A stretch of DNA of 64,000 bases, taken from an uncultured bacterium. Its GTDB lineage: Bacteria > Desulfobacterota > BSN033 > UBA1163. The first letter of the stretch is position 1, and each line of letters opens with the position of its first letter. The notes under the pieces are model-generated. The model ran no database searches, was not told the origin of the DNA, and saw nothing but the letters and a program-made list of their open reading frames with translations. A program made the position numbers and the translations under genes. The DNA lies in the NCBI GenBank assembly GCA_938002255.1, contig CALLAL010000011.1, positions 1 through 64,000 on the forward strand, read 5' to 3'. Positions 1 to 6,335 of the stretch are shown piece after piece.

Positions 1-1269
1 AAGCTTTCGGGGAAGGAGCTGAACAAAAGTTTTGATGGCAGACAGAGGATTCTTGATCTCATGGGCCAGCCCTGCGGAGAGGGTTCCGAGTGCAGCCAGG
101 CGGTCTGCCTGCCGGAGTTTCTCCTCGAGGGCTTTGATCTCGGTGATGTCCTCAAACACGGCCAACACGCCGATCTTCTTCTCCTCTCCATCTGTAAGGA
201 CAGAGGTGCTTACGGTTAACCAGATCGATGCTTCATCTTTTTTCATCTCAATTTCAGAATGGACAACGTTCCTTTCTTGCAAAGAAGTCTCAACCATTAT
301 TTGATAAAGGGGGTGGGAGTGACCCAACACATCGACCATTAACGATCCCGCACATTCCTCTTTCTTTTTTCCAAAAACCTGTTCAGCCTTTTTATTAAGG
401 GTGACGATTCTCATTTCTGAATCTACAGTGATGAGTCCGTTTGTCATTGAAGAAAGGATGTTATCGGTATAAGCCTTCAGGGAACTGATCTGCCAGAGTC
501 GGTTCTCCAATTCCTCCCGATGGAGACGAATCTGTTCAATCATATAATTAAAATTCTTTCCTAATTCTTCGATCTCGTCTCCTGTGCGAATGTCAATCTT
601 CTGCTTCAGGTCACCTTTTGCTGCTGAAATGGTCGTTTTTACCAATTCGGAGATGGGGCGGGTGATTCGTCTGGCAAAGAAGACCGATCCGATCATGCCG
701 AGGATGATGGCAACAAGCCCCAGAAGGAGAAGATTGAGGCGGGTCTTCATAATCTGGCTGGACATCCTCTCTAAGGAGAGGCCAATCCGAATGGTCCCCC
801 ATTTCTCCTGTGACTCTTTGATATAAACCGGGATGGAGATATCCAGGCCTTTGACTCCTCTTTCTCCATGGAGAATCGGTTGAATGAGCGGAGCGGTCGC
901 TCTCATCGCCTTCTCACTCACCTCATCCATCAGGGTTGTTCCCTGTTTTTCATCGTGCTGAGGATAGGCGGCAACTTTATTCTCTTTGTCATGGATGATC
1001 ACATAGAGGACATCCTCCTCAAGAGCCACTCGTTCCGCATTCTGTGCGAGGACGATGTAGTTATAGGTGAGAAGGGCATTTGTACTCAGGGCGGCCAGAT
1101 GCCTGGCCATGGTGATGCCCCGTTTCTGAGCTTCCTCCTGGATTGTTTCAGACTGCCGCTTCTCGACCAGGAGGATAACAAGGGCCATGACAAAAAGAAG
1201 GATGAGTGTGGAGTAAAGGATGAGTCTTGTTTGGAGGAGAATCGATTTCGAATCTTTTTGAAAATTCAT
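1..1269 (-). CDS. PAS/HAMP sensor histidine kinase (NtrB/AtoS type), 3' end outside window
   Basis: This is the N-terminal ~420 residues of a membrane sensor kinase; the catalytic ATPase domain lies beyond the window edge. Read from the sequence in order: a short cytoplasmic start, TM1 (about residues 15-36), a periplasmic sensor region of ~130 residues, TM2 ([12 protein letters not shown]), a HAMP linker, a PAS domain ([16 protein letters not shown]), and the H-box [19 protein letters not shown] with the phosphoacceptor at about His403. The H-box style is typical of kinases that pair with sigma-54 response regulators, and one is encoded at 3427-4812. Its ATG overlaps the TGA of the peptide-binding protein gene (ATGA), so the two are translationally coupled. 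The natural ligand is not known; the coupling suggests that the binding protein supplies the signal. Confidence 0.9.
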
Positions 1270-2876
1270 CACTTCATCAGCCAGATCTTCTTCATCGGGA
1301 TGTAAGGACCGCCAAGAGCGCTCACCTCGATGCCTCTGACATAGGGTTGATAGACCATCTGAAAGAGATGGTTTACCATGGGCACGATGGGTGCATCATC
1401 GAGGATGGTCTCTTCAATCTTTCGATACATCTCCATCCGTTTCAGATAATCCCTCTCTGCCCTTGCCTGATCCAGCAGTCGATCCACCTCGGGATTGTGG
1501 TAATTGGTGTAATTGTATTTTGATTTGGAATGAAAAAGGGTCCAAAGAAAATTATCTGGATCCGGAAAATCCGCATACCAGGCATAAATAAAGACCGGTG
1601 TTTTGTTTGCCCTCAGCATTGATTCGAAATTGGGCCAATTTGTTTCAAAATTGATTGCCGTCACAATATCTAATTTTTTCAGCTGAGATTTGATCTCATA
1701 TAGTTCTTTCTGGGCGGCATCTGATTTTGAGGCACTCCAGACTTCAATAACAGGTTTTTCCTTTCCATAACCCGATTCCATTAAAAACTTTCTTGCAAGA
1801 GTTTCATTATAGGAATAGGGTTCTCTTTTAGGATCGTATCCGGGCATTCCAGGCGGAAGTATGGTCTTGGCCAGGTTGAATTGATTCTTGTGGAGTTCTG
1901 AGATAATGAATTTTTTATCAATAGCTAAACTAATTGCCTTTCGTAGTTTTTTATCATCCAGGGGTTTATTTCTCAAATTAAATCCATAGAACCTTAAAGA
2001 AAGAAGAGGTTTCTGAACGAATGGATATTGTCTCTGTTTCAGGACTTCCTCTATCTCGTCAGGAGGTATAAAGGATTCTTCCAACCTCCCTTCTTTAAAA
2101 TCAGTAAAAATCTTTTCTCTGGGTGCACCATGATATATCTTAAAAATGACCTTATTTAGAAAGGGCCTTCCTTCAAAATAGTCAGGGTTGACTTCAAGGA
2201 CTATCTCCTCTCCCTCTTTCATTGAAATAAACTTAAATGGGCCTGTGCCAACAGGAAATTTTCCAAAATCCGTTCCAGGTTTTTCGACTTCCTCCCTGGG
2301 TAATACCTTAAACTTGTTCATCCCTAAAATTGAAAGGAATGGAGAATAGGGCTCTGTGAGGTTAATCTGGAAGGTATATTGATCAATTGCTTTCAGGCCT
2401 TTTACATTCGGTGCCCTTCTCTCCTGAAATTCTTTAAAGCCAACCACTTTCTCCAGGAAAGGAGCCGCAGGGGATTTTATTTGGGGATCGATGATTCGTG
2501 TGAAGGAATAAACGAAGTCATCGGCAACAACTTCTCTTCCATTATGAAAATTAACTCCCTCTCTTAAAAAGAAGGTATAAGTAAGGCCATCGGGAGAAAC
2601 CTTCCAGGATCTGGCTATGGCAGGAACGACATTCAGATCTTTATCAAATTGAACCAGGCCATCAAAAACCTGTTGAATTATAGTAACTGCATACAAATCA
2701 ATAGCAAGAGCGGGATCAAGAGTTTTAGGGTTAAACTCGAGAGGCCTTCGATAGGTTCCTCCTATCTTGAACGGTTCAGTTTTTTTCTCTTCAGAAAAAA
2801 GATTTACTTGGAAAATAAGGACAATTGCCAAAATAAACAAGGAGAATAGAGAAAGAAAGTAGGATCTCTTTTGCAT
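1269..2876 (-). CDS. Extracellular solute-binding protein family 5 (OppA/DppA-like peptide-binding protein)
   Basis: A 535-aa periplasmic binding protein of SBP family 5, which binds oligopeptides or nickel chelates. Family features seen: [24 protein letters not shown] near the start, [20 protein letters not shown], the [10 protein letters not shown] stretch, [14 protein letters not shown], and a C-terminal [15 protein letters not shown] region. The N-terminus ([21 protein letters not shown]) is a strong export signal, but it has no lipobox cysteine and only a poor signal-peptidase site, so it may stay as an inner-membrane anchor. No permease or ATPase gene adjoins it. Instead it shares an ATGA overlap with a sensor kinase and follows a tiny secreted-peptide gene. 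I infer a role as ligand receptor for the kinase more than as a transporter subunit, although an unlinked transporter could use it. Confidence 0.9.
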
Positions 2877-2924
2877 GTGGATTCAGGACATCTTAAGGAT
2901 TTAAAGATTTCAGGATAGTTAATA

Positions 2925-2953
2925 GTTATAGGAGGAAAAAGTTAGGATGTCAA
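2925..2953 (-). promoter_or_regulatory. Sigma-70 promoter for binding protein-kinase operon
   Basis: On the minus strand there is an exact -35 box TTGACA (2948-2953), a 17-nt spacer and a -10 box TATAAC (2925-2930), about 48 nt upstream of the binding-protein ATG. It lies just downstream of the small-peptide terminator, so the receptor and kinase appear to be expressed independently of the peptide gene. Confidence 0.7.
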
Positions 2954-2962
2954 AGGGGGAAT

Positions 2963-2999
2963 CAAAAAAAGAAAGCATAACCAGAATTGGATATGCTTC
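2963..2999 (-). terminator. Rho-independent terminator of the small-peptide gene
   Basis: Reading the minus strand, AAGCATA (2992-2998) pairs with TATGCTT (2973-2979). The stem is extended by CCA/TGG pairs around an ATTC loop, and a run of seven T follows (2964-2970). It sits 33 nt after the stop codon of the 29-aa gene and should end a transcript of about 205 nt. Confidence 0.75.
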
Positions 3000-3031
3000 C
3001 TTGAACGAGTTATTGCAATAAAGAGTAAAAT

Positions 3032-3121
3032 TTACCAACCACCTCCCTCAGCCAGAACCGGGAGCACGTAAGCCATCACAGAAAGGGCGATGATGGCCAG
3101 CTCGATTGCAATCTTCTTCAT
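3032..3121 (-). CDS. 29-aa secreted-peptide precursor (candidate pheromone, mature end EGGGW)
   Basis: An ORF of 29 codons. It begins MKK, continues as a hydrophobic core (IAIELAIIALSVMAYVL) and ends PVLA-EGGGW. A V-L-A signal-peptidase I site after residue 24 would leave a secreted pentapeptide EGGGW, so almost the whole product is signal peptide. The start is set by an exceptional Shine-Dalgarno: TAAGGAGGTGATCC ends one base before the ATG and matches the complement of the usual 16S rRNA 3' end over 13-14 nt, with AGGAGG seven bases from the start codon. The gene has its own -24/-12 promoter and terminator and sits between a sigma-54 activator gene and a peptide-binding protein/sensor kinase pair. 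I do not recognise a named family. A signalling role is inferred; a small membrane peptide is the main alternative. Confidence 0.78.
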   Translation of the reverse strand: MKKIAIELAIIALSVMAYVLPVLAEGGGW

Positions 3122-3179
3122 GGGATCACCTCCTTATCAATGGATTTGAAATAGGAAAAGAGCGAATAACATATTATTG

Positions 3180-3196
3180 AGCAAGACAGATGCCGA
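3180..3196 (-). promoter_or_regulatory. Sigma-54 (-24/-12) promoter of the small-peptide gene
   Basis: The minus strand reads CGGCATCTGTCTTGCT: GG (3193-3194), exactly ten bases, then GC (3181-3182), with the TTGC -12 element intact and GGCA at -24. This matches the TGGCAC-N5-TTGC consensus closely. Transcription would begin near 3169, leaving a ~48-nt leader before the ATG at 3121. The gene just upstream encodes a sigma-54 activator, which strengthens the call. Confidence 0.75.
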
Positions 3197-3248
3197 AAAA
3201 AAAAGAGAAGAAATTTTTTACTGAAGAGGGTTGAAGAGGGGTGTTATG

Positions 3249-3273
3249 ACAGGGTTTTAACAGATTGCCCTGT
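3249..3273. promoter_or_regulatory. Palindrome, candidate activator-binding site
   Basis: ACAGGG (3249-3254) and CCCTGT (3268-3273) form an inverted repeat with a 13-nt spacer, about 90 bp upstream of the predicted sigma-54 start site. A related half-site, ACAGGGTAACAG, lies near 3390. NtrC-type activators often bind such sites. A plus-strand terminator reading (a T run follows) is also possible, but no plus-strand gene ends here. Confidence 0.4.
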
Positions 3274-3357
3274 TTTTTGATCTGCGTGATCCCGATTCGT
3301 TTGATTGCCTATGATGATGGGCAGGAAGATTAAAAAAGAAAACTGTTGAGAAGAAAA

Positions 3358-3374
3358 GTAGTCGTTTTGACTAC
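3358..3374. promoter_or_regulatory. Palindrome GTAGTC-N5-GACTAC: enhancer site or terminator
   Basis: A perfect 6-bp inverted repeat (GTAGTCGTTTTGACTAC) lies about 195 bp upstream of the predicted sigma-54 start site and 53 bp after the stop of the response-regulator gene. Its distance suits an upstream activating sequence. On the minus strand it is followed by TTTTCTTCTC, so it could equally be a weak intrinsic terminator for the regulator gene. Confidence 0.4.
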
Positions 3375-3426
3375 ATGAGTTTGCATTGCACAGGGTAACA
3401 GGCAATTCACTTCAAAATGGGCAGGC

Positions 3427-4812
3427 TCATCCTTCACCCTTCTTGAACTGGATACCCAATTGTTTGGCTTTCTGGAGGAGGGTGTTTCGATGAATCTTGA
3501 GAATTCTTGCTGTCTCGGTCTGATTCCACTGACAGGCTTCAAGAACATTGAGGATGATTCGCCTTTCCACAGCTTCCCTGATCCTGATGAAGCCCTTCTC
3601 CTTTTCAGTCATCTCCTGAATGCTCTGCTTTGCATCCATCAGGATATCGAGGGGGATATGTTTGATATCGATCCATTCACCCTCTGAGGAAAGGACCACT
3701 ATTCGCTCAATCAGATTCTCAAGCTCGCGGATATTCCCTGGCCAATGATATTGGTTAAGGGCATCCAGTGCTTTTTCTGTAACTCCTAAAATGTTTTTAT
3801 GAAAAAGGTTGTTGAATTTACGAATGAAATGGTTGACCAAAAGAGGCATGTCTTCCTTCCTTGCCCTGAGTGGAGGGATGAAGATGGGAACGACATTAAG
3901 CCGGAAGTAGAGATCTTGCCTAAATTTCTCTTTCTTGACTGCCTCTTCAAGGTTGATATTCGTTGCCGAAATGACCCGAATGTCCACTTTTATAGGTTTA
4001 TTCGAGCCAACCCGTTCAATCTCTTTTTCCTGAAGAACCCGGAGTAACTTCGCCTGAAGGTCAGACCGCAGGGCAGAGACCTCATCAAGAAAGAGGGTTC
4101 CTCCGTTGGCATGCTCAAACTTCCCGATTGTTCGGGTATGGGCTCCGGTAAAGGCTCCTTTCTCATGGCCGAACATTTCGCTCTCCATTAATTCGGAAGG
4201 AATGGCAGCACAGTTGATCGCTACGAAAGGCCCTTTCCTCCAGCTTCCCTGTCGATGGATGGCCCGTGCGACCAGTTCCTTACCCGTTCCGCTTTCTCCG
4301 GTGATCAACACATTGGTCGTCGTCAGGGCCACCTTCTTAATGAGCTCAAAAATTTCGAGCATCGACTTATTCTGACTGATGATCTGATCAAAACCGCGAG
4401 AAGCTTCAACCTCCCCGCGCAGGAAATCCAGTTCCCTGTGGAGTTTCTGCTGACTGATGGCGCGATTGACGGTCGAAAGGATATCATCAGGCTCATAGGG
4501 CTTAGTGATGTAGTCGTAAGCTCCCAATCGGATGGCGTCGACTGCCTTTCGGGCGAGGTTGAGCGCAGAGACCATGATAACATCCACAGTTTCGTCCAGC
4601 TCTTTGATTCTGCGAAGGACTTCCAATCCATCCATGCCAGGCATATTGACATCGAGCAGGATAAGATCGACGGATTCTTTCTGAAAGATTTCCAACGCCT
4701 CCGCACCGCTTCCCGCACTGAGGATGTGATACTCATCCTCAAGGATCACCTCGAGGGACTGCCTGGCTCCAGGGTCGTCATCGACTATTAAGATGGTCGG
4801 TTTAATTCCCAT
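3427..4812 (-). CDS. Sigma-54-dependent response regulator (NtrC family)
   Basis: A 461-aa three-domain activator. The receiver domain (about 5-120) has the acidic pocket DDD at 11-13 and phosphoacceptor Asp54 in LLDVNMPGMDG. The AAA+ domain follows with Walker A GESGTGKE, the sigma-54-contact loop GAFTGA, Walker B GGTLFLDEV and the R-finger region FRQDLYFRLNV. A C-terminal Fis-type helix-turn-helix (NQTETARILKIHRNTLLQKA) binds DNA. Phosphorylation would let it remodel sigma-54 holoenzyme at -24/-12 promoters, and one lies just downstream before the 29-aa peptide gene. The partner kinase is probably the one at 1-1269. There is no clear Shine-Dalgarno before the ATG. Confidence 0.96.
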   Translation of the reverse strand: MGIKPTILIVDDDPGARQSLEVILEDEYHILSAGSGAEALEIFQKESVDLILLDVNMPGMDGLEVLRRIKELDETVDVIMVSALNLARKAVDAIRLGAYDYITKPYEPDDILSTVNRAISQQKLHRELDFLRGEVEASRGFDQIISQNKSMLEIFELIKKVALTTTNVLITGESGTGKELVARAIHRQGSWRKGPFVAINCAAIPSELMESEMFGHEKGAFTGAHTRTIGKFEHANGGTLFLDEVSALRSDLQAKLLRVLQEKEIERVGSNKPIKVDIRVISATNINLEEAVKKEKFRQDLYFRLNVVPIFIPPLRARKEDMPLLVNHFIRKFNNLFHKNILGVTEKALDALNQYHWPGNIRELENLIERIVVLSSEGEWIDIKHIPLDILMDAKQSIQEMTEKEKGFIRIREAVERRIILNVLEACQWNQTETARILKIHRNTLLQKAKQLGIQFKKGEG

Positions 4813-5929: not shown

Positions 5930-6088
5930 TTAGAAGCCTTTCTTCTGGATTTCGGCTAAGCCCTCATCCACTGTAAATACGGCACCACATTTCGGGCATT
6001 TAATCTTGGTGTCGCCTGGTGTCCCACACCCGAAAGAAAAAATTGCCAACATCGCCAATGCCAAAACGATACTCACCATTCTCTTCAT
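5930..6088 (-). CDS. Small (52-aa) exported zinc-ribbon protein, possible lipoprotein
   Basis: Starts MKRMVSIVLALAMLAIFSFGC, a signal sequence with Cys21 that may be lipid-modified (the lipobox is not canonical), followed by a short mature part carrying a Cys-X2-Cys knuckle (Cys31, Cys34 in KCPKCGAVF). The Shine-Dalgarno is strong (AAAGGAGGTGAAG, 4 nt before the ATG). Function is unknown; one CxxC pair could bind metal as a dimer or act as a redox thiol. It is followed by the hairpin at 5857-5881. Confidence 0.75.
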   Translation of the reverse strand: MKRMVSIVLALAMLAIFSFGCGTPGDTKIKCPKCGAVFTVDEGLAEIQKKGF

Positions 6089-6211
6089 TAACTTCACCTC
6101 CTTTCATTCAGTAATCCTTCTCAAGCTCCCTGTAAATACAGACCTATCGAATAACAAAATTCCCTATTGATTGTCAAGAAAAAAATGTTAGTTAAATTCA
6201 TTACCCTTCAG

Positions 6212-6280
6212 CTATTTCTTCTTCGACTTCGGTTTCTTGGTGGTCTTCGTGGCCTTCCCATGTGTCTTTCCGCAAGCCAT
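6212..6280 (-). CDS. 22-aa lysine-rich peptide
   Basis: A very short ORF beginning MACGKTHGKATK and ending in a lysine-rich tail (KKPKSKKK). It is supported mainly by a strong Shine-Dalgarno, GGAGGAGGTGAT, placed 6 nt before the ATG. Nothing identifies its role; nine of 22 residues are lysine, which suggests nucleic-acid or membrane-surface binding. It precedes the 52-aa zinc-ribbon gene on the same strand by ~120 nt. Confidence 0.5.
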   Translation of the reverse strand: MACGKTHGKATKTTKKPKSKKK

Positions 6281-6335
6281 GATCCAATCACCTCCTCCAA
6301 AAAGAGTTAATTATTTATCCCCTTAAATTTATTAT

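Follow-up and report, generated by a model that had tools for sequence, protein, structure and literature searches.

The gene block on the minus strand at positions 1–4812 of the window (the whole 64,000-nucleotide stretch of DNA that was analysed, whose position 1 is base 1 of the contig) comprises genes for an NtrC-type response regulator, a 29-codon product, a family 5 solute-binding protein (SBP) and a histidine kinase (Table 1). On balance, the locus would appear to be a dedicated self-amplifying peptide-signalling circuit, leading from the peptide through the SBP, the kinase and the regulator back to the peptide. This reading draws on what the sequence and comparison with relatives show: a promoter, predicted enhancer sites and a terminator, together with a dedicated regulator, a conserved gene order and selection acting on the peptide.

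Table 1. Features of the peptide locus, in window coordinates.
Feature	Position	Strand	Basis
Histidine kinase gene (sCache-HAMP-PAS-HisKA), truncated at contig end	1..1272	-	Pfam; full-length orthologue at L015:8716-10548
Family 5 SBP gene (OppA/DppA type), predicted peptide binder	1269..2876	-	SBP_bac_5, 5e-87
σ70-like promoter TTGACA-N17-TATAAC for the SBP and kinase genes, distinct from the σ54 unit	2925..2953	-	Sequence; TTGACA...TATATA in genus relatives
Intrinsic terminator 3' of the peptide gene	2969..3002	-	-16.3 kcal/mol, z -5.0, U7 tail
29-aa peptide gene MKKIAIELAIIALSVMAYVLPVLAEGGGW	3032..3121	-	Signal-peptide-like leader, predicted cleavage between VLA and EGGGW; orthologues in related genomes
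Long Shine-Dalgarno TAAGGAGGTGATCC	3123..3136	-	Sequence; AAGGAGGTGAT invariant in genus alignment
σ54 (-24/-12) promoter TCGGCATCTGTCTTGCT	3180..3196	-	11/12 consensus; predicted transcript start ~3169
Palindrome ACAGGG-N13-CCCTGT, unsupported as enhancer	3249..3273	.	Near chance; not conserved
UAS2, predicted enhancer dyad TGCCCATCATCATAGGCA	3306..3323	-	127 bp upstream of -24 box; 125-127 in relatives
Palindrome GTAGTC-N5-GACTAC, likely weak terminator for the regulator gene	3358..3374	-	Terminator-like scan, hairpin; not conserved
UAS1, predicted enhancer dyad TGCCTGTTACCCTGTGCA, flanked by ATTGC...GCAAT	3387..3404	-	208 bp upstream of -24 box; TGC-N12-GCA-type dyad of relatives at 206-208
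Candidate third site TGCCCATTTTGAAGTGAA, weaker and 19 bp away from UAS1	3406..3423	-	9/12 only, tentative; distant loci show tandem sites at this 19-bp spacing
Response regulator gene, predicted activator	3427..4812	-	Pfam PF00072 receiver, PF00158 σ54-activator AAA+ (GAFTGA present), PF02954 Fis-type HTH

Judged by its match and its recurrence in relatives, the σ54 promoter is real and conserved. It is the sole match of at least 11/12 to YTGGCAY-N5-TTGCW on either strand of the window, in which the bare GG-N10-GC spacing, correctly described as exact here in an earlier note on this DNA, occurs 353 times. A box scoring 10–12/12 lies 75–105 bp 5' of the peptide ATG in 25 of 27 loci, the window included, with next-best sites of only 7–9; L166 (7) and L168 (9) fall short of this. 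The genome carries rpoN (PF04552, E = 6.5e-64). Downstream, the terminator hairpin was matched in stability by none of the shuffles, and equivalent hairpins follow the peptide gene in related loci. The peptide gene is thus the lone gene between the σ54 promoter and a terminator, as had been proposed.

The earlier note had further taken two palindromes, ACAGGG-N13-CCCTGT and GTAGTC-N5-GACTAC, to be NtrC-type enhancers. Both are present exactly as strings and at distances plausible for enhancers, but that they are the regulator's binding sites is very improbable. For arms with at least 3 G/C, 0.32 such palindromes are expected in shuffles and the probability of two or more is 0.067, a frequency that is near chance and only marginally unusual. 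Neither palindrome sits at a conserved position in the alignment of relatives, the conserved positions being taken by other dyads, and GTAGTC-N5-GACTAC has a terminator-like hairpin score (GTAGTCAAAACGACTAC TTTTCTTCTC) 53 nt past the regulator stop codon. The enhancers are instead likely to be the predicted dyads UAS1 and UAS2, perhaps with the third site, which were located by cross-genome comparison and not as palindromes picked out by eye. Most genus members have dyads of the TGC-N12-GCA type (for example TGCCAACAACTGTTGGCA) 206–208 and 125–127 bp upstream of the -24 box; those of G001/L130 have diverged, and L127, from a neighbouring genus, retains the first. UAS2 is the top dyad among all 135 offsets of the window's upstream region, with 7/9 pairs, and the dyad symmetry of UAS1 itself is weak (3/9 pairs in the 18-mer). 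On sequence alone the window's own sites are weak (best score p = 0.135); it is their position that supports them. Distant loci have the motif TGCACA-N6-TGTGCA, often present as a pair 19 bp apart.

The wiring of the regulator to the peptide gene is well supported by genome comparison. The regulator combines the receiver, σ54 AAA+ (with GAFTGA) and Fis-type HTH domains of the NtrC type, and its orthologues within the genus show 74–76% identity and the same arrangement, which is likewise found in more distant relatives. Regulator and peptide occur together in 8/8 regulator-bearing genomes of the genus (one partial), and neither is found in G003 or G007. Across 17 genomes, the exact TGCACA-N6-TGTGCA motif was observed 13 times; 11 of these copies are found at the peptide promoter, and the reversed control gave 0. 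The type of site also tracks the recognition helix of the adjacent regulator: (K/R)(I/V)HRNT is found with TGCACA, KISRNY with TGCCAACA, and RMNRSF with GTAT/ATAC. Synteny, co-loss and this covariation point to the adjacent regulator as a likely activator of the peptide gene. The earlier note's view of the peptide as the regulator's target stands to that extent and was incomplete, as the relatives have a second σ54 target. Beside the two extra TGCACA-N6-TGTGCA sites (G153:C13 and G418:C1), the usual position showed no convincing σ54 promoter.

In most readable loci (L015:10569-10777, L016:6864-7061, L131, L126 and others), the second σ54 promoter follows the kinase gene and precedes a stand-alone receiver-domain gene, and it carries the same species-type enhancer motif. 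The enhancer copies are TGCCAACAATCGTTGGCA and TTGGCATTCTATTTGCT in L015 and L016, and TGTTAACAATCGTTAACA in L131. Since the motif is nearly confined to the peptide promoter and recurs at this second promoter, the regulon would be small yet bigger than the peptide gene alone. In the window's own genome, the remainder of the kinase gene and the downstream receiver genes lie beyond the contig end and were not found elsewhere in the assembly. Further TGCCAACGATTGTTGGCA sites were noted in L193 (G002:C7:41527) and L192 (G001:C25:6174), with an 11/12 σ54 box ~127–131 bp off; downstream of these sites are a lipoprotein-like gene and the gene of an apparently secreted protein, RHS-type-like by eye. 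These are possible further regulon members, although the regulator of G001 itself goes with another type of site.

Contigs permitting, the order in relatives is the σ54 regulator, the σ54 promoter with the peptide gene and its terminator, the SBP, the Cache histidine kinase, the second σ54 promoter and the receiver-domain gene. In some loci, the response regulator was not seen beside the peptide gene; elsewhere the order is response regulator, peptide, SBP, histidine kinase and receiver. The SBP gene is directly 3' of the peptide gene in every locus with sufficient contig and the kinase gene comes next, so that the peptide gene is linked by gene order to dedicated putative receptor genes. An Rfam search of the window gave no match.

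The peptide consists of MKKIAIELAIIALSVMAYVLPVLA followed by EGGGW, that is, a type I signal-peptide-like leader and a Gly-rich tail of 5–6 residues, and its Shine-Dalgarno sequence is exceptionally long. By inspection of 25 peptides, the leader shows a basic n-region, a hydrophobic core and (V/A)-x-A, the last of which is invariant before the tail, as are a Pro, an Ala and one Gly (YxLPVLA-x-GGG). The predicted tails (EGGGW, DGSGY, TGGGW, NGGGGP, CGGGGP, RGGGGP, QGGGGA and similar) have masses of 445–505 Da, and several distant peptides have a Cys at +1. The family is present in other Desulfobacterota families, with 1–4 peptide copies per locus; it was detected in 12 of the 395 genomes sampled from the phylum and, for the class of G378, in 18 of 56. 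Comparison of the peptide with Pfam and NCBIfam gave nothing above the cut-off. Tandem copies in L124 (G307:C3) and L018/L165 coincide with assembly gaps or contig ends, and copy numbers are therefore probably underestimated. In L129 (G005:C232), a similar leader (MKKIAIELLIIAATVVASVAPVLACYGDWF...) was noted at ~4230 on the reverse strand, with no σ54 promoter and followed by a radical-SAM-like gene (by eye); this leader gene is possibly a modified-peptide offshoot.

The peptide is under purifying selection (pN/pS = 0.22 in 8 close orthologues), with stronger constraint on the leader (pN 0.065) than on the tail (pN 0.263). This is more conservation than a signal peptide alone would be expected to show, so the leader may have a function of its own. 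The product could remain uncleaved as a single-pass membrane peptide and, as MgrB does with PhoQ, exert feedback on its own kinase, often negatively, while the SBP and Cache kinase sense an unrelated outside ligand. The best argument for this reading is that conservation is highest in the membrane-spanning part of the peptide, and such a feedback loop would also fit the dedication of a regulator to one small membrane peptide. We nevertheless consider an uncleaved membrane peptide unlikely: the invariant Ala and the (V/A)-x-A beside the Gly-rich tail resemble a signal peptidase I site, the tandem copies (up to 4) suggest product dosage, and the neighbouring SBP belongs to the peptide-binding type.

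The best solved relatives of the SBP are mostly peptide-binding proteins (DppA 1.3e-49, PrgZ 3.6e-37). The Asp of its ADxPDPDNF motif, kept in 25/25 SBPs covering the stretch, aligns with the Asp of peptide-type SBPs, whose role in OppA and DppA is to bind the peptide amine. Membership of the SBP_bac_5 family and this aligned Asp are consistent with the OppA/DppA type. No transporter permease was noticed among the flanking genes listed, which are the annotated part of the flanking ORFs.

In the proposed autoinducing circuit, the 29-aa product would be exported via Sec and cut after VLA by signal peptidase I, freeing a Gly-rich peptide of 5–6 residues (here EGGGW, ~505 Da, a porin-permeable size). 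The periplasmic SBP would capture this peptide, and the SBP and peptide would together activate the neighbouring Cache-domain kinase, which would in turn phosphorylate the NtrC-type regulator. By binding the TGC-N12-GCA sites that precede the -24 box by ~125 and ~207 bp, the regulator would drive the σ54 promoter of the peptide, and the feedback would thus be positive and not negative. In relatives, it would also drive the second σ54 promoter of the receiver-domain gene, as an output or a reset. The receptor genes would be expressed from their own σ70-like promoter. We infer autoinduction, with the mature tail acting through the SBP on the kinase, from the gene content, the export signal, the tandem dosage and the separate σ70-like receptor promoter. 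The conservation of the leader, the Cys at +1 in several distant peptides and the weak sequence of the window's own enhancer sites count against this circuit, as does the possibility of a small ligand binding directly to the sCache domain, the peptide playing no part.

It is also conceivable, if rather improbable, that there is no autoinduction and that the secreted peptide is an end product (an effector, an antimicrobial, or a metal or nutrient ligand), switched on once the SBP and kinase detect oligopeptides of foreign origin or some other solute. A dedicated regulator with one strong target is also compatible with such a response gene, and SBPs are known kinase partners for nutrients (PMC7386598). 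Against this, a Gly-rich tail of 5–6 residues is small for an effector, the peptide gene adjoins a peptide-type SBP gene wherever the contig reaches, and the interval between the peptide and receptor genes showed no gene for export, immunity or maturation.

Signalling between cells by dedicated gene-encoded short peptides is classically Gram-positive, and Opp-type binding proteins sense peptide pheromones in the Gram-positive Phr and enterococcal cCF10/PrgZ systems. The predicted circuit resembles these in its small Sec-exported precursor, its mature peptide of similar length (5–7 residues there), its OppA-like binding protein and its autoinduction; it differs in its Gram-negative hosts, its σ54 promoter with an NtrC-type regulator and its membrane kinase, where the Gram-positive systems use import and a cytoplasmic receptor. 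In Pseudomonas syringae, the periplasmic SBP and two-component system AatJ-AauS-AauR respond to an outside small molecule (PMC7386598). An SBP acting with a two-component system on an outside small molecule is likewise proposed here from the genes; in contrast to AatJ-AauS-AauR, the SBP is of the peptide family, no transporter genes were noticed beside it, and the peptide gene is the main regulated target. The A-signal of Myxococcus xanthus, a former deltaproteobacterium, is a mixture of amino acids and peptides that serves as a density signal (PMC12288465), whereas the signal proposed here is a dedicated gene product. σ54 regulons of NtrC-family enhancer-binding proteins, similar to that predicted here, have been described in Desulfovibrio vulgaris, of the same broad bacterial group; the main text of that paper (PMC4641369) contains no terms for a peptide circuit or the TGCACA motif.

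A literature search of open-licence papers returned no matching system, and the components are known, while their combination looks to be undescribed in Gram-negative sulfur-cycle bacteria. We tentatively suggest, as a quite possible reading of the wider distribution, that this is a widespread ribosomal peptide-pheromone family of Gram-negative Desulfobacterota, in which XGG(G)Gx penta- and hexapeptides would arise by ordinary Sec processing, with an OppA-like co-receptor, a Cache kinase and σ54 self-amplification. If true, the locus would give uncultured syntrophic and sulfur-cycle bacteria peptide signalling, with a testable ligand of 5–6 residues and reporter promoters.

Two further very small genes with strong ribosome-binding sites were noted on the minus strand of the window. 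One, at 6208–6300, has a Lys-rich product (MACGKTHGKATKTTKKPKSKKK); the other, at 5930–6097, encodes a 55-aa lipoprotein-like CPKC protein, which is also present in L013.
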